Source: a virus. From it: a DNA stretch of 32,739 nt. Position 1 is the first letter of the stretch. Each line of letters starts with the position of its first letter. The notes beneath the pieces are model-generated. The model was not told the origin of the DNA. It saw only the letters and a program-made list of their open reading frames with translations, and did no database searches. Shown here piece by piece: positions 7,309-32,739 of the stretch. Location of the stretch: positions 1 through 32,739 of the IMG/VR virus record IMGVR_UViG_3300010885_054874; one strand, written 5' to 3'. The translations under genes were made by a program, and so were the position numbers.

Positions 7309-7578
7309 ATGAGCAATTATTGTGTATTTAAAAATCGCGAAGTTAAAGAAATATCCTACGAAAAACTTAATAAACTAATTGAAGAAAAAAAAGTTGTTTT
7401 GGTTTACGGTCACGGAGAGGGTTACACATCGACCGCTGTGCATATATTTAATACGACGGGGGGAGCCGCAAAATTTGCAGAAAAAGATACCCGCGGCGAG
7501 TGCTATAGCATGTGGGATGAGCAATGGGCAGAAATAGCTACAAATAAATTTGACGTGTTTAAGGCTTGCAGATGTTAA
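7309..7578 (+). CDS. Early protein of unknown function (89 aa)
   Basis: First gene of the rightward early operon, with AAAAGGAGATC before the ATG. Residues 1-35 suggest two strands and a helix (YCVFKNREVKEISYEKLNKL, then VVLVYGHGEG). The GHGEG loop followed by TTGGAAKF looks like a small-molecule or surface loop, but I do not recognise a family. The end is CRC. First genes of early phage operons often disarm host defence or transcription. The position suggests this, but the sequence does not show it. Confidence 0.72.
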   Translation: MSNYCVFKNREVKEISYEKLNKLIEEKKVVLVYGHGEGYTSTAVHIFNTTGGAAKFAEKDTRGECYSMWDEQWAEIATNKFDVFKACRC

Positions 7579-7604
7579 GCAGCCATAAAAAAGGAGACTA
7601 AAAA

Positions 7605-7973
7605 ATGACAACTATATCAAAAAAAGAGTTAACTAATAAAAAGCCTAACGCTGTTTTAAAAAGATTACCAAATCAATTGTCTTTTGGATTATTTGTAGAT
7701 GGCGTAAATGTGCACCCCGATTTTCAATATAACTATTACGCTTTTTGTGAAACAGGATATCGCGCTTCAGGCGCTAAAAATTTTGACGAAGCGAAAGCTA
7801 TGGGAGAACGAATTGATGTCGCGGCAGAATTGGGGATTATAAAAATAGATAGTGATAATTACATCGTAACAGATTTAGAAAAATTTGAAGCATGGGCAAA
7901 AAAACCAGAGGAAAAATCGGACGGTGTTTTGATCGGTTCTGGAGAATGGGTAGATGGTAAATTTTATTCTTAA
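7605..7973 (+). CDS. Early protein of unknown function (122 aa)
   Basis: Starts after AAAAAGGAGACTAAAAA. The acidic protein has aromatic-rich strands in the first half (NQLSFGLFVDGVNVHPDFQY, then YYAFCETGYRASG) and a helix around NFDEAKAMGERIDVAAELG. No membrane segment, zinc motif or catalytic pattern stands out. Small size, acidity and early position are compatible with a host-takeover or anti-defence role, but that is inference. The next gene follows after 9 bases. Confidence 0.7.
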   Translation: MTTISKKELTNKKPNAVLKRLPNQLSFGLFVDGVNVHPDFQYNYYAFCETGYRASGAKNFDEAKAMGERIDVAAELGIIKIDSDNYIVTDLEKFEAWAKKPEEKSDGVLIGSGEWVDGKFYS

Positions 7974-7982
7974 AGGTGAAAA

Positions 7983-8246
7983 ATGGAAAATTACAAAATA
8001 GATATAGATAGTAAAGTATCTTTTATGTACGCAAAACGCATACCGTCTGGTTTTAGTTGTCACGGAACTATAACCAGAGATTATTTTAATACCGGCATTT
8101 TGATTAAAAATATAAAAACAGGAATTTATGTTCAGCTAAATTCAGGGTCAATTTCCACTTTAGATCAAAGCAAAGTTAATAAAATTTTAAAACTAAAGGA
8201 GACTAAAAAATGTACGCAACACACACAAAAAAAGAAGAACACTTAA
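7983..8246 (+). CDS. Early protein of unknown function (87 aa)
   Basis: Starts after AAAGGTGAAAA, 9 bases beyond the previous stop. The sequence predicts mostly beta strands (YKIDIDSKVSFMYAKRI, GTITRDYFNTGILIKNI, GIYVQLNSGS) in a small barrel-like pattern. The last 20 residues are basic (KLKETKKCTQHTQKKKNT), and their coding region overlaps the ribosome site and start of the next gene in another frame. Family not recognised. Confidence 0.65.
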   Translation: MENYKIDIDSKVSFMYAKRIPSGFSCHGTITRDYFNTGILIKNIKTGIYVQLNSGSISTLDQSKVNKILKLKETKKCTQHTQKKKNT

Positions 8247-8389
8247 GCAGCCTAAAAAAAACATTAAAAAATAATTATATTATGGAGATAAAGCCTGATT
8301 CAGATTTTGAAAAAATGCAAATACTTGAACAATTAGAAGGACTTATGCCAAAAGATAAATTTGAAACACTTCTTGAAAACTTAAAATAA
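8210..8389 (+). CDS. Small early protein (59 aa) overlapping its neighbour
   Basis: ATG at 8210 after AAAGGAGACTAAAAA, the same ribosome-site cassette used by two other genes in this operon. It overlaps the 3' end of the 87-residue gene by 37 bases in a different frame. The product is charged and helical (KKEEHLSSLKKTLKNNY, then MQILEQLEGLMPKDKFETLL). Function unknown. The strong ribosome site is the main support. Confidence 0.62.
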   Translation: MYATHTKKEEHLSSLKKTLKNNYIMEIKPDSDFEKMQILEQLEGLMPKDKFETLLENLK

Positions 8390-8403
8390 AGGAGACTAAA
8401 AAA

Positions 8404-9081
8404 ATGGAACCAGAAATACTAAAAAAAATATTATCAGAACATAAGAAATTTATTAATTCTTTTGGTAAAAAAGGGATCAAAGCTGATTTGAGCAATGCAA
8501 ACTTAAGCGATGCAAAATTGATCGATGCGAATTTGCGCAATGCGGACTTGAGCGGTGCAAACTTGCGCAATGCGGACTTAAGGGGTGCAGACTTGCGCAA
8601 TGCGGACTTGCGCAGTGCGGATTTAAACGGTGCGAACTTGAGCGGTGAGGACTTAAACAATTTTGCGGACTTGTGCAATGCCAATTTAAGCAGTGCGGAT
8701 TTAAACGGTGCGAACTTAAGCGGTGCAGATTTAAACGGTGCGAACTTAAGCAATGCAAATTTAAACGGTGCGGACTTGTATTTCACGAAATTAATTGGTG
8801 CTAATTTAATCAGGGCGCACTTGCGCGATGCGGACTTGGGCAGTGCGAACTTGCGCAATGCGGACTTAAGGGGTGCGGACTTGCGCCATTCGAACTTGTC
8901 CGATGCGAACTTGCGCAATGCAAACTTAAGCGATGCAAAATTGATCGATGCCAACTTGTGCTATGCGGACTTAAAAGATGCTGAATTGGGCGGTGCGGAC
9001 TTATACCGTGCGAACTTGCGCAATGCGAATTTAAAAGAAGCTAAATTGCGCAATGCAAACTTAAGCGGTGCGGACTTGTGA
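8404..9081 (+). CDS. Pentapeptide-repeat protein
   Basis: 225 residues. The N-terminal 30 are helical (EILKKILSEHKKFIN, then KKGIKADLS), a header often seen in phage pentapeptide proteins. From about residue 27 to the end nearly every fifth residue is Leu in A-(D/N)-L-x-x units, about 39 repeats, predicting a right-handed quadrilateral beta-helix. The register is disturbed near EDLNNFADL and at ADLYFTKLIGANL, giving likely kinks or loops. Family members such as MfpA and Qnr mimic B-form DNA and bind gyrase, others have unknown roles. The chain has many Asp and Arg, so the net charge is not clearly DNA-like. It lies in the early operon after AAAGGAGACTAAAAAA. Confidence 0.92.
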   Translation: MEPEILKKILSEHKKFINSFGKKGIKADLSNANLSDAKLIDANLRNADLSGANLRNADLRGADLRNADLRSADLNGANLSGEDLNNFADLCNANLSSADLNGANLSGADLNGANLSNANLNGADLYFTKLIGANLIRAHLRDADLGSANLRNADLRGADLRHSNLSDANLRNANLSDAKLIDANLCYADLKDAELGGADLYRANLRNANLKEAKLRNANLSGADL

Positions 9082-9401
9082 TGTGTGATTATAAAATGAA
9101 CAAAAATTGTAAAACTAAAACATTTTATTATGCAATTTACCCCAATATTATTGTGACAACTTTTAAAGATGTTAGTAAGTATAATGGGTCTTTTGTTGTA
9201 GAAGCAAAAACAATAAAAGCAAAAAACCTTGAAGAAGCAAAAAAAATTATTAATACTTTTTATTCTTGTCAAAAAATTTCAATACTGGAATATAACCCGG
9301 AAAAAGAAATTTTACAAATTGGAGATTCAATTGATGAAAAAAGACAATTAAAAAACGTATTGGCGGAAAAAAGATCAGAAATGTGGATACATAAAAAATA
9401 A
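9081..9401 (+). CDS. Small early protein of unknown function (106 aa)
   Basis: The ATG at 9081 overlaps the TGA of the pentapeptide gene (TGATG), so it is probably translated by re-initiation. An in-frame GTG three bases earlier and an ATG at 9096 are alternatives. The basic protein starts with three Cys/Lys-rich residues groups, then strands (KTKTFYYAIYPNIIVTTF, FVVEAKTIKAKNLEEAKKII). 'A-K-T-I-K-A-K-N-L-E-E-A-K-K-I' is like small phage proteins in which a strand leads into a helix. Function unknown. Confidence 0.65.
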   Translation: MCDYKMNKNCKTKTFYYAIYPNIIVTTFKDVSKYNGSFVVEAKTIKAKNLEEAKKIINTFYSCQKISILEYNPEKEILQIGDSIDEKRQLKNVLAEKRSEMWIHKK

Positions 9402-9422
9402 TTTATTATATGAGGTGATGAA

Positions 9423-9620
9423 ATGATACACGATGATTGGATTAAACAATTAGACAAGCAAAACTTTGTTGAGCAAGTAAAAATTTTGTCTCGCGGAGTT
9501 TTATTTACGGCAATTACGGAAAATGTAGAACCGGAAAATGTAGAGATATTAACCATAAAAAGAAATATTACTTATTTTGGTTTTTATGGTGATCGATCAA
9601 AAAAAGATTTTTTATTTTAA
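9423..9620 (+). CDS. Small early protein of unknown function (65 aa)
   Basis: Last gene before the strong terminator at 9629-9658. Its ribosome site ATGAGGTGATGA is an extended match to the 16S rRNA 3' end. It is also complementary over 13 bases to the loop of the hairpin at 13002-13037. The protein is acidic in its first half (MIHDDWIKQLDKQNFVEQ) and ends in aromatic strands (ITYFGFYGDRSKKDFLF). No family recognised. Confidence 0.62.
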   Translation: MIHDDWIKQLDKQNFVEQVKILSRGVLFTAITENVEPENVEILTIKRNITYFGFYGDRSKKDFLF

Positions 9621-9628
9621 AACATAGC

Positions 9629-9658
9629 AAAAGCGAGACAAAAAATCTCGCTTTTTTT
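9629..9658 (+). terminator. Intrinsic terminator of the early operon
   Basis: AAAAGCGAGA, a 7-base loop, TCTCGCTTTT and further T residues form a 10-bp perfect stem and U-tract. It ends rightward transcription 8 bases after the 65-residue gene and isolates the CRISPR-like element that follows. Confidence 0.9.
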
Positions 9659-9659
9659 G

Positions 9660-9688
9660 TTGTGTAATATTGCAATAAAAAGTATTAT
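9660..9688 (+). promoter_or_regulatory. Promoter-like site driving the CRISPR-like repeats
   Basis: TTGTGT (9660-9665), exactly 17 bases, then TATTAT (9683-9688, five of six consensus bases). The expected start is 9694-9695, the first base of the first CRISPR-like repeat. It lies directly behind the early terminator, so this RNA would be an independent transcript. The -35 is weak. Confidence 0.55.
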
Positions 9689-9693
9689 GAATT

Positions 9694-9780
9694 GTCGCGT
9701 TAAATTTTTAGCGCGTGGATTGAAACAGATAGAATGCAGAAAGAATCGCGACCCACATTCGTGGGCGCGTGGATTAAAAC
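9694..9780 (+). CRISPR. Pair of type I-C CRISPR-like repeats, candidate RNA anti-CRISPR
   Basis: Repeat A (9694-9726, 33 nt) begins GTCGCG and ends GCGCGTGGATTGAAAC. Repeat B (9745-9780, 36 nt) begins ATCGCG and ends GCGCGTGGATTAAAAC. These ends match the type I-C consensus, including the 11-nt handle TGGATTGAAAC left by Cas5d cleavage. Each copy folds: A pairs CGCG-TTAA with TTAG-CGCG (one G-T wobble), B pairs CGCG-A-CCCAC with GTGGG-CGCG around an ATTC loop with one bulged A. The inner stems differ but pairing is kept. Only 18 nt separate them, about half a normal spacer, and no cas genes are present. Known phage solitary repeat units act as RNA anti-CRISPRs by sequestering Cas proteins, and this fits that pattern. 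The 5' end coincides with a predicted transcription start. Confidence 0.82.
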
Positions 9781-9815
9781 TAAATTACATCAAAAAAATA
9801 AAGGAAAAAATAATC

Positions 9816-10187
9816 ATGTTAAATGAATCAATTTTTAATGCGGAAAATTTAGAAGAAATACCTGAAGAAGTATCAAAAGAAATAAAAGATGAAAAAAATT
9901 ACAAAGAAATTTTTAAGGAAATGTTTTTAATTAAAAAAGAGTTGTCTCTGAATGAATTAATCCTTGGAACATACAAAGGATACAAAAAACAAATAACCAG
10001 AAAAACGGCAACAACAACTTGTTACTATTTAACTAGCAGAGGGATATTATCAAGATCAAAGGAAAATCCAAGAATTTTTTTGTTGAATGAATCCCCAATA
10101 AAAAAACCTAAAAAAGAAAAAAAAATAAATAAAGAAGTTGAAAATATAAAAGAAGTTGAAGATATAAAAGAAAATGAAATCAATTAA
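9816..10187 (+). CDS. Probable winged-helix DNA-binding protein downstream of the CRISPR-like repeats (123 aa)
   Basis: The start at 9816 follows AAAGGAAAAAATAATC. An open frame extends back to 9657 but would translate through the CRISPR-like repeats with no ribosome site. The N-terminal 40 residues are very acidic (about residues 5-35), the centre (about 45-92) reads LSLNELILGTYKGYKKQITR, TATTTCYYLTSRGILSR, PRIFLL, a helix, recognition helix and wing pattern, and the C-terminus is a Lys/Glu repeat (KEVENIKEVEDIKENE). It shares the transcript that begins with the repeats. Anti-CRISPR loci often carry an Aca helix-turn-helix regulator, so this is a candidate partner. Not matched to a named Aca family. 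Confidence 0.66.
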   Translation: MLNESIFNAENLEEIPEEVSKEIKDEKNYKEIFKEMFLIKKELSLNELILGTYKGYKKQITRKTATTTCYYLTSRGILSRSKENPRIFLLNESPIKKPKKEKKINKEVENIKEVEDIKENEIN

Positions 10188-10431
10188 TAAACTTCAGGAG
10201 ATATGCTTGTTAAGCGCAATTAAAAATTTGATGGAGAATAATAATACTTTAACTTCTAATATTAAATTACTGTCGGAATTATTATGTTTTGATATTTTAA
10301 CACTCATAACAATATTCGGAAGTTTATACGTGCAAGGGGCGTTAGAGATTGACATTTTCCCATCTTCTGTTAATGACTATTTAACTTTAAAAATAAATCA
10401 TGAAAAAATAAAAAATATTTTTAATGATTAA
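10174..10431 (+). CDS. Small protein downstream of the CRISPR-like element (85 aa)
   Basis: The ATG at 10174 overlaps the end of the previous gene by 14 bases, suggesting coupling. Residues 5-60 predict three helices (LQEICLLSAIKNLMEN, SNIKLLSELLCFDILTLITIFGSLYVQG), similar to a small winged-helix or MarR-like core, then strands ending in YLTLKINHEKIKNIF. Its stop is followed by the terminator at 10442. It lies in the same transcript as the repeats, so it could be a regulator or an anti-CRISPR protein, but nothing in it proves either. Confidence 0.6.
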   Translation: MKSINKLQEICLLSAIKNLMENNNTLTSNIKLLSELLCFDILTLITIFGSLYVQGALEIDIFPSSVNDYLTLKINHEKIKNIFND

Positions 10432-10441
10432 AATAAAAATT

Positions 10442-10465
10442 AAAGGGCCGATTAGGCTCTTTTTT
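10442..10465 (+). terminator. Intrinsic terminator after the CRISPR-like/regulator operon
   Basis: AAAGGGCC, loop GATTA, GGCTCTTT and a run of T. The 8-bp stem contains one G-T pair. It ends the rightward transcript that begins at the CRISPR-like repeats, about 35 bases before the convergent nuclease gene. Confidence 0.82.
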
Positions 10466-18332: not shown

Positions 18333-20321
18333 TTAACTATCTGTTGCCATTTTTGACACTAATAAAAATCCGCCAACACCCGAAACAGGTTTTGAATAAA
18401 CATTTGCTCCACCTGAAGATAAAAATACATTTCCATAATACTGAAAAATACTATTATTTGTTGCTTGGCTTTTGAACGGCACAAAAACAACACTATTAGT
18501 TGCGGTTGTGCTGACAGCAGAATAAGTTAATAATAAAACAGACGACGATCCTAAATATACAATTGCATTACCAACTTGCGAATTACCACCAGCATTTACA
18601 AGACTACAATTATTAAAACTAATAGTAAATGATGTGCCTAATTGTATAATTGCGTCTGTATTTAAATTGCCTGTTGGAACACCTTGAATAAAACACTGAC
18701 TAAAAGTTGCAATAACGCCTTTATTGTTTGATCCCGTAAAATTAAAAACGTGAAAATTAGCAGAAAAAGAACTATTAATGGCGGAATAAATTGCAACATT
18801 ATTACTATTAGTAACAAGACAATCAGAGTTTCCACTTGTGCAAGCGCTGTTTCTAAAATCCCAAAGTTCTCCTCTTGAAAATTTCATTGCAACCGCCGTG
18901 CCTGAAACGTTAATTGATGAATTATTTATATAAAGTCTACTACTATCAGTAACGTTCATTAAAATTCCGTCAATATTTGCGTCATTTCCAATTAAAACAT
19001 CATTTAAACTTACAAAAAGATTAGAGCCAGAATACGAAATGCCATAAGCATCTATTCCCGTTCTTGCCGCAAAAGTTAAATTAGAAATTGATACGCCATT
19101 GTCAACATAATTTCCAACATTGCTGCCAACCGTTGTAATTGAAATGCTTGGAAATTTAATCGCTTTTGGTTGAGAGGATGCGGCTTCCATTCCAACAATA
19201 TCTACTCGTTGTTTATTTACAACAATATTTTCAGTGTACGACCCCGGGGCAACGTAAATTGTTACATGTGTTGTATTGTTAACTGAAATTAAAGACAAAG
19301 CTTTGTTAACAGTAGAAAAAGGAGCAGATTGAGATCCTGTTCCAACGGTATCATTACCGGTTATTGAAACGTAATATACTTGCGCTAAAGCAGTAGTTGC
19401 TTGCCCTACTGTTGCTGCGTCTGTGCTTAACGTGCCTGGTTTTAAATTATTAATCTTATAATTATTTAACGATACATCTGCGTTTGGTGCTTCAATAGAA
19501 TTTAAAGGGGTTTCTACTGGCAGGTATCCCGCTAATTGCTCTACTGTAGCTGCGTCTCCGCTACTAATTCCTTTAGCTAGATTTGTTATTTTTTTAGAAT
19601 TTAAAGAAACATCCGAATTTGGTGCTGCAATAGAATTTAAAGGAGTTGAAGCAAGCAACACGCTTTGTGGGGTTGGAGCATTTGAAGTATTACCCACCAA
19701 AGCTTGACCTGACAACAAAACAGGTGTGACCATTCTATAATTATCATCAAGATAAACAACGCCGTTTTGATTTGTGTTGTGATTAAAAGCAATAGGTTGT
19801 GTAGTATTACCATTGCCAATTGTTAACCACGTTTGACCATTAACAGTTGTTATGGACAAATATGCAGAAGCTAATCCAGTTTCAGAATCTATTATTCCTA
19901 AAGCTCCGTTATTTTTGTTCCAAGATCCAACTACAACGCCCGTATCTTTGTTTTTTAAAATTAAACTAGCATCAATTTCAACATTTTCATTTGCAATTAA
20001 TTTTATTCCATTTTGTGAATTTGAAATAGATCCAGAATATGTGTTTGTAGGATCCAAAAAAAATAAACTTTTTCCTGTTTTAAAAGTCATATTACTTTCA
20101 GCGTCAATTACAATATATGGCCCATTTGTAATAGTGTTTACCGCAGGAACTTCAAAAGCTTGTAAATAAGGCGATAAAATTTCAGCTTTTAATTCTGAAT
20201 AAAAAATAGCAGTACTATTACCATTTTCGTAAGGCGAAAGAAAAGAATATATTAATGCTGTATCTGGTAAAGTTGTTGAAGGATTTCTGTCGTATATTTG
20301 TTTTAAATTTGGATTGCTCAT
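18333..20321 (-). CDS. Tail appendage (tailspike-like) protein with a beta-helix domain
   Basis: 662 residues. The first about 35 (MSNPNLKQIYDRNPSTTLPD and following TALIYSFLSPYEN) repeat almost exactly in the upstream gene at 20922. Residues about 226-305 hold two copies of a fibre repeat (TPLNSIAAPNSDVSLNSKKI / TPLNSIEAPNADVSLNNYKI and DAATVEQ / DAATVGQ). From about 316 YYVSITGNDTVGTGSQSAPF starts a DUF1565/pectin-lyase-like right-handed beta-helix rich in N/S/T ladders. This is typical of receptor-binding or capsule-degrading spikes. Catalytic residues cannot be assigned. It is the last large virion gene. Confidence 0.82.
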   Translation of the reverse strand: MSNPNLKQIYDRNPSTTLPDTALIYSFLSPYENGNSTAIFYSELKAEILSPYLQAFEVPAVNTITNGPYIVIDAESNMTFKTGKSLFFLDPTNTYSGSISNSQNGIKLIANENVEIDASLILKNKDTGVVVGSWNKNNGALGIIDSETGLASAYLSITTVNGQTWLTIGNGNTTQPIAFNHNTNQNGVVYLDDNYRMVTPVLLSGQALVGNTSNAPTPQSVLLASTPLNSIAAPNSDVSLNSKKITNLAKGISSGDAATVEQLAGYLPVETPLNSIEAPNADVSLNNYKINNLKPGTLSTDAATVGQATTALAQVYYVSITGNDTVGTGSQSAPFSTVNKALSLISVNNTTHVTIYVAPGSYTENIVVNKQRVDIVGMEAASSQPKAIKFPSISITTVGSNVGNYVDNGVSISNLTFAARTGIDAYGISYSGSNLFVSLNDVLIGNDANIDGILMNVTDSSRLYINNSSINVSGTAVAMKFSRGELWDFRNSACTSGNSDCLVTNSNNVAIYSAINSSFSANFHVFNFTGSNNKGVIATFSQCFIQGVPTGNLNTDAIIQLGTSFTISFNNCSLVNAGGNSQVGNAIVYLGSSSVLLLTYSAVSTTATNSVVFVPFKSQATNNSIFQYYGNVFLSSGGANVYSKPVSGVGGFLLVSKMATDS

Positions 20322-20358: not shown

Positions 20359-20922
20359 TTAATTAAGCGAATATGTCATTAATTGAATACGGTTATCTCC
20401 AATTTGAGAAAAACCAGTTCCACCCCAAAATCCGACTGGAAAACCTCCGTTAGTGTTTTGAAAATAAATATTTATATTTCTGTCAAAGGTTACTTCAAAC
20501 GAACCTGGAGAACCTTCAGGCACTAATCCGTTGCTGTTTGTTGTAATAAAACCATACGAAGTTTTTGATGGTGTAAGTGCCGCTGGAAGAAAATTAGGAT
20601 TTGCAGAGCGAACCGTTCTAAAAGCAGCAAAATTTACAATATTAAAACCAACTGCGGGAATTAAAACAGTAACTAAATTTCCTACTTTTCTAAATGTAAA
20701 AACAGCTGTAAAATCAGTTGTTCCAACTGGCGAGCCAACATTAAATGGACATGATACCGTTATATCTGTTTCATTTGAAAATTGCTTTTTTAAATCACTA
20801 ATTGAAATTCCTGTTGAATCTGTGTTTCCGTAAGGCGGAAGAAAAGAATACATTAACGCTGTATCTGGTAACGTTGTTGAAGGATTCCCGTCATAAATTT
20901 GTTTTAAATCTGGATTGCTCAT
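20359..20922 (-). CDS. Second tail appendage protein sharing the N-terminal module (187 aa)
   Basis: Begins MSNPDLKQIYDGNPSTTLPD, TALMYSFLPPYGN, nearly identical to the 662-residue protein, then diverges at about residue 36. The remainder is beta-rich (VSCPFNVGSPVGTTDFTAVF, NIVNFAAFRTVRSAN, GSPGSFEVTFDRNINIYF) and resembles a compact C-terminal tip domain of phage fibres. The shared module probably attaches both proteins to the same site, so they may compete or form mixed appendages. GAGGAAAAACAA precedes the ATG. Confidence 0.75.
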   Translation of the reverse strand: MSNPDLKQIYDGNPSTTLPDTALMYSFLPPYGNTDSTGISISDLKKQFSNETDITVSCPFNVGSPVGTTDFTAVFTFRKVGNLVTVLIPAVGFNIVNFAAFRTVRSANPNFLPAALTPSKTSYGFITTNSNGLVPEGSPGSFEVTFDRNINIYFQNTNGGFPVGFWGGTGFSQIGDNRIQLMTYSLN

Positions 20923-28890: not shown

Positions 28891-29790
28891 TTAATATGGT
28901 TTTAATAAAATAGGGGGTGTATCTATGTAAATAATGTCTCCAACATTCTTGCTTGCGTTACATAAAACAATAGAATTTATTGAAGGATTAGAAAAAACAG
29001 GATTAAGTTGAACACCACCATTAGCCACAATAGTTGTTCTTGCAGGGTCATATCCCATGTTAGGAGAAACCCTAACGGCAGCCAATTCCCACGTCATATT
29101 GAACGTTGCTCCAGTACCCGATCCAGTTGTAGAAGTCTGGGGGACTGGGTTTGATGGCAAATTCATATAAACGCCAGGTGCTAAAATACTATAAGTAGCA
29201 ATAGAACCTCCCGCGCCAATACTATTAACTCTTATTTGACCGCCGTCTAAATCTCGCCAAACATCATTTACAGCGTATCCCGTGCCAGGATTTTGTAAAG
29301 TTGCGGTTTTAAGTTGCATTGCATCAATTGAAACGACTGCACCAGTACCATTTCCTTGTACAGTAATAGTAGGAATAGTTACAAACGATCCCGCGTTTAC
29401 TATTGTTGCGCTTAAAATTGTTGCGCCAGTCACTGAAACATCTACACCCGAAATTAATAAAGTATTTTGGTAAAAATCTTTGTTAATAACGTCATAACAA
29501 GAAACAGGAAAGAAAAAATTTTGAATAGCAAATAATCCTTTTGGCAACTTACCTAATACAGAATTTTTAGCAGTTGTTGTTCCAGTTATTGTCATTGCGC
29601 CTCTTAAGCTACAAGTACCAAAACCAGTTAAAGTAATTTTTGGTTCAGATCCAACTTTTGGAATAGCAACAGAAGATGAACCAGGAATAAATTCAAAAAC
29701 ATTATTTTGTGTCATTTGGTTATAAATGTCTTGATAACTTGCGTAAATACCAGACCTTGGAGAAGCAATATTTATATTTTGATAGCTCAT
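28891..29790 (-). CDS. Virion surface/decoration-type protein with GTGA repeats (299 aa)
   Basis: Start at ATG 29790, with TAGGTG upstream. A GTG three codons earlier overlaps that site and is less likely. After residue about 120 there are repeated 'NAG-x-x-x-x-P-T-I-T-V-x-G-N-G-T-G-A' type units (IVNAGSFVTIPTITVQGNGT, LQNPGTGYAVNDV, TTGSGTGATFNMTWELAAVR). Such repeats are common in phage structural proteins and build beta-sandwich or solenoid surfaces. It lies right after coat and before gp4-like, so decoration or a capsid-vertex protein is plausible. Not a named family to me. Confidence 0.6.
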   Translation of the reverse strand: MSYQNINIASPRSGIYASYQDIYNQMTQNNVFEFIPGSSSVAIPKVGSEPKITLTGFGTCSLRGAMTITGTTTAKNSVLGKLPKGLFAIQNFFFPVSCYDVINKDFYQNTLLISGVDVSVTGATILSATIVNAGSFVTIPTITVQGNGTGAVVSIDAMQLKTATLQNPGTGYAVNDVWRDLDGGQIRVNSIGAGGSIATYSILAPGVYMNLPSNPVPQTSTTGSGTGATFNMTWELAAVRVSPNMGYDPARTTIVANGGVQLNPVFSNPSINSIVLCNASKNVGDIIYIDTPPILLKPY

Positions 29791-29818
29791 TATTAGCACC
29801 TATTATTAAAAATTTTTT

Positions 29819-32105: not shown

Positions 32106-32739
32106 TTAATTTATATTAGCGCTACAACCTTCTATGGCAAAATCTAATTCTCCATAAAAAGTAAATTTAAGTGTTATTTCATGCCTAAACGAAACAACGC
32201 ACATCCATTGCAACGGACATTGTGTTTGACCTGTTTTTCCTATGGGTCTACTTACTGTGTTTTGCCATTGCCGTGAATCTTTTGAAATTGCTAATTGCAC
32301 ATGATTTAAATTAAATTGAGAACTTCCTTGAACAATATCAAGGCTAACTCCTTTTAATAAATTTCTAAACGTTCCTATTTTTTTATTTTCACACAGTCTT
32401 TTTAAAACTAATTCTCTTTTTATGTTTGCTGGAGCCAAAGTTAAAGTATAAATTCCATCTTGCAAGGCAATTGATTCGCTTGTGCGAGATGCGCCCACTA
32501 TTAAATCATCGCTTAATGCCCATTTTTGTGATGATTCACACCACACCCACGCAATACCACTTTGCAAAAACGAAAGATGATAAAAAAAGTTGCCTCTAAA
32601 CGAGTAAAAAGAACCATAACAGCGTTTAACATCAGGATATTCACTAATTATTCTTGAAATACCCACACAAATAGGGCTATCTGGTGATAAATTTGGTAAA
32701 TAATTCCAGCCAGAGGCTGTTATTTCCATTGGTAAATAA
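32106..32739 (-). CDS. P22 gp10-like tail hub protein (C-terminal part)
   Basis: The 3' part of the gene that starts at 863 and crosses the repeat. Reads DFGAISTDSIINSVNKIYFL upstream of the repeat, then after it YHLSFLQSGIAWVWCESSQK and the C-terminus SFRHEITLKFTFYGELDFAI. The ending resembles the P22 gp10 end (IGFKLRVITKSPVTLSGCQI). An ATG at 32729 is internal to this gene and is not its start. The scaffold gene begins 14 bases further on. Confidence 0.7.
   Translation of the reverse strand, partial: YLPMEITASGWNYLPNLSPDSPICVGISRIISEYPDVKRCYGSFYSFRGNFFYHLSFLQSGIAWVWCESSQKWALSDDLIVGASRTSESIALQDGIYTLTLAPANIKRELVLKRLCENKKIGTFRNLLKGVSLDIVQGSSQFNLNHVQLAISKDSRQWQNTVSRPIGKTGQTQCPLQWMCVVSFRHEITLKFTFYGELDFAIEGCSANIN
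32617..32739. repeat. Terminal direct repeat, right copy
   Basis: Identical to 1-123. See the left copy. It lies inside the gp10-like gene, which makes a regulated cohesive end less likely and an assembly overlap or permuted genome more likely. Confidence 0.95.

Follow-up and report, generated by a model that had tools for sequence, protein, structure and literature searches.

The closest described relatives of the element considered here are the RNA anti-CRISPRs (Racrs), phage mimics of CRISPR (clustered regularly interspaced short palindromic repeats) repeats that inhibit CRISPR-Cas systems, among which RacrIC1 is an experimentally proven inhibitor of type I-C (PMC10651486). Two other arrangements come near it in anatomy: the CreA and CreR RNAs, in which two divergent repeats enclose a short spacer analogue (PMC8501985, PMC12737573), and the virus-borne mini-CRISPR arrays, which consist of repeat, spacer and repeat without cas genes (PMC6858448). 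The stretch of DNA analyzed here (32.7 kb, referred to as the window) is an IMG/VR virus record carrying phage packaging and structural genes, and at positions 9694-9780 it contains two type I-C-like repeat units. We consider it probable, at roughly 0.72, that this locus is a phage Racr directed against a host type I-C CRISPR-Cas system, in a tandem-pair form. That reading rests on the sequences and folds of the units, on a structure conserved both in a relative and among unrelated viruses, and on the finding of no Cas5d gene in the record; that the locus is transcribed and cut, and that its RNA binds Cas proteins and inhibits them, we infer. Like RacrIC1 and other Racrs, the locus is a cas-less I-C repeat mimic in a small phage operon with the same kind of fold and handle; unlike them, it is a pair of diverged units with 18 nt between the two. 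The window units lead their operon, and no known acr was recognized among the genes downstream of them, whereas RacrIC1 follows acrIC5.

Both units consist of a CGC/GCG-based hairpin followed by the 11-nt tail UGGAUU(G/A)AAAC, which is the type I-C stem and handle form, and they resemble in form native I-C repeats such as the gammaproteobacterial AGTCGCGCCTTCACGGGCGCGTGGATTGAAAC. Folded alone, unit 1 makes 8 pairs (-9.1 kcal/mol, z -2.1) and unit 2 makes 9 pairs with a single bulged A (-15.3 kcal/mol, z -3.0), and in both folds the single-stranded 3' tail is exactly 11 nt long. The common 3' end GCGCGTGGATTRAAAC has exactly two exact copies in the window, both on one strand; when as many as 3 mismatches are allowed, there are three copies against 0.38 expected, a number reached in 0 of 100 shuffles. 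Overall the two units are only 67% alike, and Rfam gave no match. The sequence-only reading, which had described a pair of type I-C CRISPR-like repeats of 33 and 36 nt, 18 nt apart, folding through different inner stems with one bulged A, is borne out by these results. Its statement that no cas genes are present holds for Cas5d, the only family for which the record was searched (other cas families were not). No convincing self-target of the 18-nt gap was found.

A scan of 2.9 million IMG/VR viral contigs for relatives of the window terminase revealed one close relative, L087, a 36.3-kb contig with a large terminase subunit (TerL) 96% identical; a search with the protein encoded downstream of the pair found none at first, and then only the already known L087. 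At the matching locus of L087, the terminator and a promoter-like TTGTGT-17-TACTAT precede a single unit, TTTCGCGCTTAATTTTAGCGCGTGGATTGAAAC, which is followed by the orthologue of the gene downstream of the pair. The 16-nt 3' end of this unit is unchanged, and its stem is altered yet still paired. The genes around the repeat locus are 47-73% identical between the two phages, whereas the packaging and capsid genes are mostly 87-96% identical. Because the unit has been kept between conserved flanks while its neighboring genes are only 47-73% identical, the repeat is a maintained element of the phage lineage. L087 has no second unit within 100 bp, so unit 2 is missing there; either one lineage has gained the second unit or the other has lost it. 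In form, the L087 locus agrees with the solitary repeat unit class.

Comparable elements were found in viruses unrelated to the window phage. Three virus contigs with no gene in common with it contain divergent I-C-like pairs, with gaps of 23 nt (L005), 26 nt (L010) and 30 nt (L126); the pattern searches for pairs were restricted to short gaps and are uninformative on the frequency of long ones. Solitary units lie a few bases after a TATAAT sequence in L112/L116, L113, L114, L117, L119, L120 and L121. Among 18 units, the inner stem is complementary in 36 of 36 cases at two variable pair positions, compared with 24.8 when the arms are shuffled between units, and none of 20,000 shuffles equalled 36/36. 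The positions scored are the two inner pairs that the search pattern left free; the 18 units are not all independent, but both arms differ. No Cas5d was detectable in the 12 virus records searched (L126 is not among these). Not counted as parallels were L012, which has identical copies, L123 and L124, whose pairs lie within longer arrays, and L125, L127 and L128; L111 and L099 were retained as possible cases only. In L111, a contig from a Desulfobacterales genome, two I-C-like units at 790-880 are followed by mutually similar sequence, as if a unit and its flank had been duplicated, and no Cas5d was found in the source genome.

SRUFinder, the program of the published survey, accepts only candidates that align with 90% or more of a known repeat at an identity of 90% or higher. 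Full matches lying within 100 bp of one another are grouped as an array, and a candidate is discarded if its flanks match the repeat at above 70%. The window pair has its second unit 18 nt away, inside the 100 bp from which a second repeat must be absent, and its identity to native repeats lies below 90%; on these two counts, it is probably a variant of the Racr kind rather than a formal member. The earlier label "solitary" was accordingly loose, since the locus is a pair and the published definition shuts it out. The features of the locus are collected in Table 1.

Table 1. Features of the repeat locus and the putative operon that follows it, in window coordinates.
Feature	Position	Strand	Basis or counterpart in relative L087
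Intrinsic terminator, strong, closing the upstream gene 9423-9620	9629..9655	+	terminator scan; kept in L087
Putative promoter TTGTGT-17-TATTAT	9660..9688	+	sequence reading; L087 has TTGTGT-17-TACTAT, equal spacing
I-C-like repeat unit 1, 33 nt: GTCGCGTTAAATTTTTAGCGCGTGGATTGAAAC; 8-bp hairpin, then handle TGGATTGAAAC (9716-9726)	9694..9726	+	orthologue in L087
Gap ("half spacer"), 18 nt: AGATAGAATGCAGAAAGA	9727..9744	+	sequence reading
I-C-like repeat unit 2, 36 nt: ATCGCGACCCACATTCGTGGGCGCGTGGATTAAAAC; 9-bp hairpin with bulged A, then handle TGGATTAAAAC (9770-9780)	9745..9780	+	no counterpart in L087
Small winged-helix-like protein, possible regulator; first gene downstream of the pair	9816..10187	+	61% identity in L087
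Second small winged-helix-like protein	10174..10431	+	45% identity in L087
Intrinsic terminator ending the putative two-gene operon	10442..10462	+	terminator scan

The terminator scan of the region found three terminators against 0.3 expected, and the one that closes the upstream gene is predicted to isolate the repeat transcript. The sequence-only reading had placed unit 1 at the transcription start, which is only partly borne out: a promoter-like element lies just upstream, its putative -10 separated from unit 1 by 5 nt in the window, and the element is kept in the relative. Its -35 is weak, it is absent from the list of a consensus promoter scan (which saw no promoter excess), and the relative has about 11 additional bases between the -10 and the unit. 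The further suggestion that unit 1 forms the free 5' end does not hold in the relative.

The described biochemistry of type I-C suggests how such an RNA may act. In a crRNA (CRISPR RNA) made by Cas5d, a 33-nt spacer lies between an 11-nt 5' handle and a 21-nt 3' hairpin handle; one Cas5d remains on the hairpin, and another is thought to hold the 5' handle (PMC5965380). The substrate needs just a 3-bp stem and a tetraloop (PMC7064716), and assembly of the type I-C Cascade is nucleated by a Cas5c-Cas7 clamp on the 5' handle (PMC7684278). In our model, transcription would begin at unit 1 or close to it and continue into the two-gene operon, and host Cas5d would recognize both hairpins, cleaving at the 3' base of each. 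The products would be hairpin 1; a miniature crRNA in which the 18 nt separate the 11-nt handle 1 from hairpin 2; and an mRNA whose 5' untranslated region is headed by handle 2. Since handle-bound Cas5c and the adjoining Cas7 nucleate the I-C Cascade, each transcript would offer two nucleation sites. Cas5c and Cas7 would be tied up there in complexes, short or open-ended, that have no target, and these decoys would compete with real crRNAs. At about 6 nt per Cas7 subunit, a footprint stated for Cas7f, the 18-nt gap would hold roughly half of the normal seven; the earlier idea that a half-length spacer prevents a working effector fits the Cas5d literature. Handle 2 ends 35 nt ahead of the start of the first winged-helix gene (9781-9815); a Cas5c-Cas7 filament on it would therefore lie over the ribosome binding site, and that gene could sense Cas proteins. 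A more far-reaching version, which we regard as doubtful, makes tandem short-gap units an RNA anti-CRISPR class of their own: Cas5d would excise a complete miniature crRNA, bearing both handles and half a spacer, on which a stable, stunted Cascade would form. At its most extreme, this version also gives the short spacer a seed that directs the complex against the host cas promoter, as a phage-made CreR.

Several results weigh against a Racr. Searches by terminase, RecT, coat and portal similarity gave distant matches or none, and neither these nor the spacer search identified a host or a host I-C system. Among 1,161 spacers from I-C arrays there was no convincing match to the phage, the longest exact stretch being 15 nt, which is too short to call. 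The cellular genome that comes nearest, G347, carries distant homologues of the portal, coat and DUF1064 proteins on one contig (37% G+C); neither it nor any of 9 further members of its family that were searched has a Cas5d, and I-C Cas5d scored above the cut-off in 33 of the 369 genomes of one class. A single close relative is known. The best identities of the two units to native repeats, among 19 compared, are 74% and 81%, below the 90% of the survey. Lastly, activity in type I-F resides in the stem-loop and the RNA upstream of it; unit 1 has almost no RNA upstream, so the sink would have to form downstream. Even so, the anti-CRISPR interpretation advanced from the sequence alone is partly supported and is the best one available, given the I-C stem and handle form, the solitary unit in the relative, the like units by promoter-like sites in unrelated viruses and the precedent of RacrIC1.

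Chief among the rivals is a CreA/CreR-like guide RNA: two diverged repeats would enclose a short spacer, and the seed of that spacer would bring the host Cascade to a phage promoter or the host cas promoter, repressing it without cutting. In a typical CreA gene, two degenerate repeats that differ from each other enclose a spacer analogue, an anatomy very similar to that of the window pair; beside a TTC protospacer-adjacent motif (PAM), all that CreA requires is seed complementarity at positions 1-5 and 7-11 (PMC8501985). CreR RNAs, in type I systems, act as repressors of the cas operon to which they belong (PMC12737573). However, the window locus is phage-borne and has no toxin gene (creT) between the putative promoter and unit 1. 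The seed of the gap matches the window at no more than 7 of 10 positions beside a TTC PAM and at best 8 of 10 beside other TC PAMs, and no target was found for it in L087, where the matching site has a single unit and different sequence downstream. The gaps of L005, L010 and L126 reach at best 7/10, 8/10 and 9/10 (at a non-TTC PAM) in the contig stretches compared. We consider such a guide unlikely.

In another reading, the two GCGCGTGGATTRAAAC boxes, serving as a protein operator, or the hairpins, as a regulator in the 5' untranslated region of the mRNA, would control the downstream winged-helix gene. The position of the pair, directly upstream of two small winged-helix-like proteins, accords with this, and Cas binding so near to the start codon could also mask the ribosome site. 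An operator or leader leaves unexplained the exact I-C handle and the stem geometry, as well as the like units in virus contigs that share no gene with the window phage, and we hold it to be very improbable.

A viral mini-CRISPR array, giving a genuine if shortened crRNA against a competing phage, has literature support (PMC11656645), but known mini-arrays carry host-like repeats, whereas the window repeats are mismatched. Furthermore, the gap has 18 nt where a spacer of about 33 would be expected, TTC followed by the gap has no exact match in the 2.9 million viral contigs of IMG/VR, and L087 retains one repeat and no gap; the odds on this explanation are slim indeed. The pair might also be what remains of a spacer acquisition, or of a chromosomal array that the phage carries and that is decaying, but this is disfavored and we hold it to be very improbable. 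Irregularly spaced pairs do also occur inside real decaying arrays, as several genome matches show, but compensatory changes keep the stem paired, the unit persists in L087 between conserved flanks, and the record has no further repeats and no Cas5d that we could find.

The pair is intergenic, between genes 9423-9620 and 9816-10187. The protein of the latter has no Pfam or PHROG match; its predicted core, H-E-H-H-E-E at moderate confidence, gave weak Foldseek matches to winged helices. The model of the second protein (predicted local distance difference test, pLDDT, 87) likewise gave weak matches, mostly to MarR-like winged helices. Both belong to a run of small + strand genes at 7309-10431, several without family matches, which also includes a pentapeptide-repeat protein with A(D/N)LxxA repeats (8404-9081; 63% identical in the relative over 86 residues). 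This cluster is likely, on the comparison of the two phages, an accessory island, possibly for anti-defense, since the orthologues found (those of the pentapeptide-repeat protein, g9078, g9423, g9816 and g10174) diverge more than the packaging and capsid genes. Elsewhere in the record, the adjoining genes 18333-20321 and 20359-20922 have nearly identical N termini, MSNP(N/D)LKQIYD(R/G)NPSTTLPDTAL, which suggests duplication of a virion-attachment module. Gene 28891-29799, amid conserved head genes, is 36% identical in the relative against about 96% for its neighbors. An exact 123-base direct repeat is shared by the two termini of the record (1-123 and 32617-32739), which thus resembles a complete circular assembly or a terminally repeated genome.

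Solitary repeat decoys of phages, the Racrs, are already known, and what is most likely new here is the two-copy variant. The rules of the published RNA anti-CRISPR survey remove paired and low-identity units. Given that this locus has a solitary orthologue in its relative and that three unrelated virus contigs carry divergent pairs like it, part of the Racr class seems to have escaped the survey. The locus also allows a direct test of the effect that an RNA resembling a crRNA, with two handles and half a spacer, has on the type I-C Cascade, the minimal Cascade, which has no Cas6.
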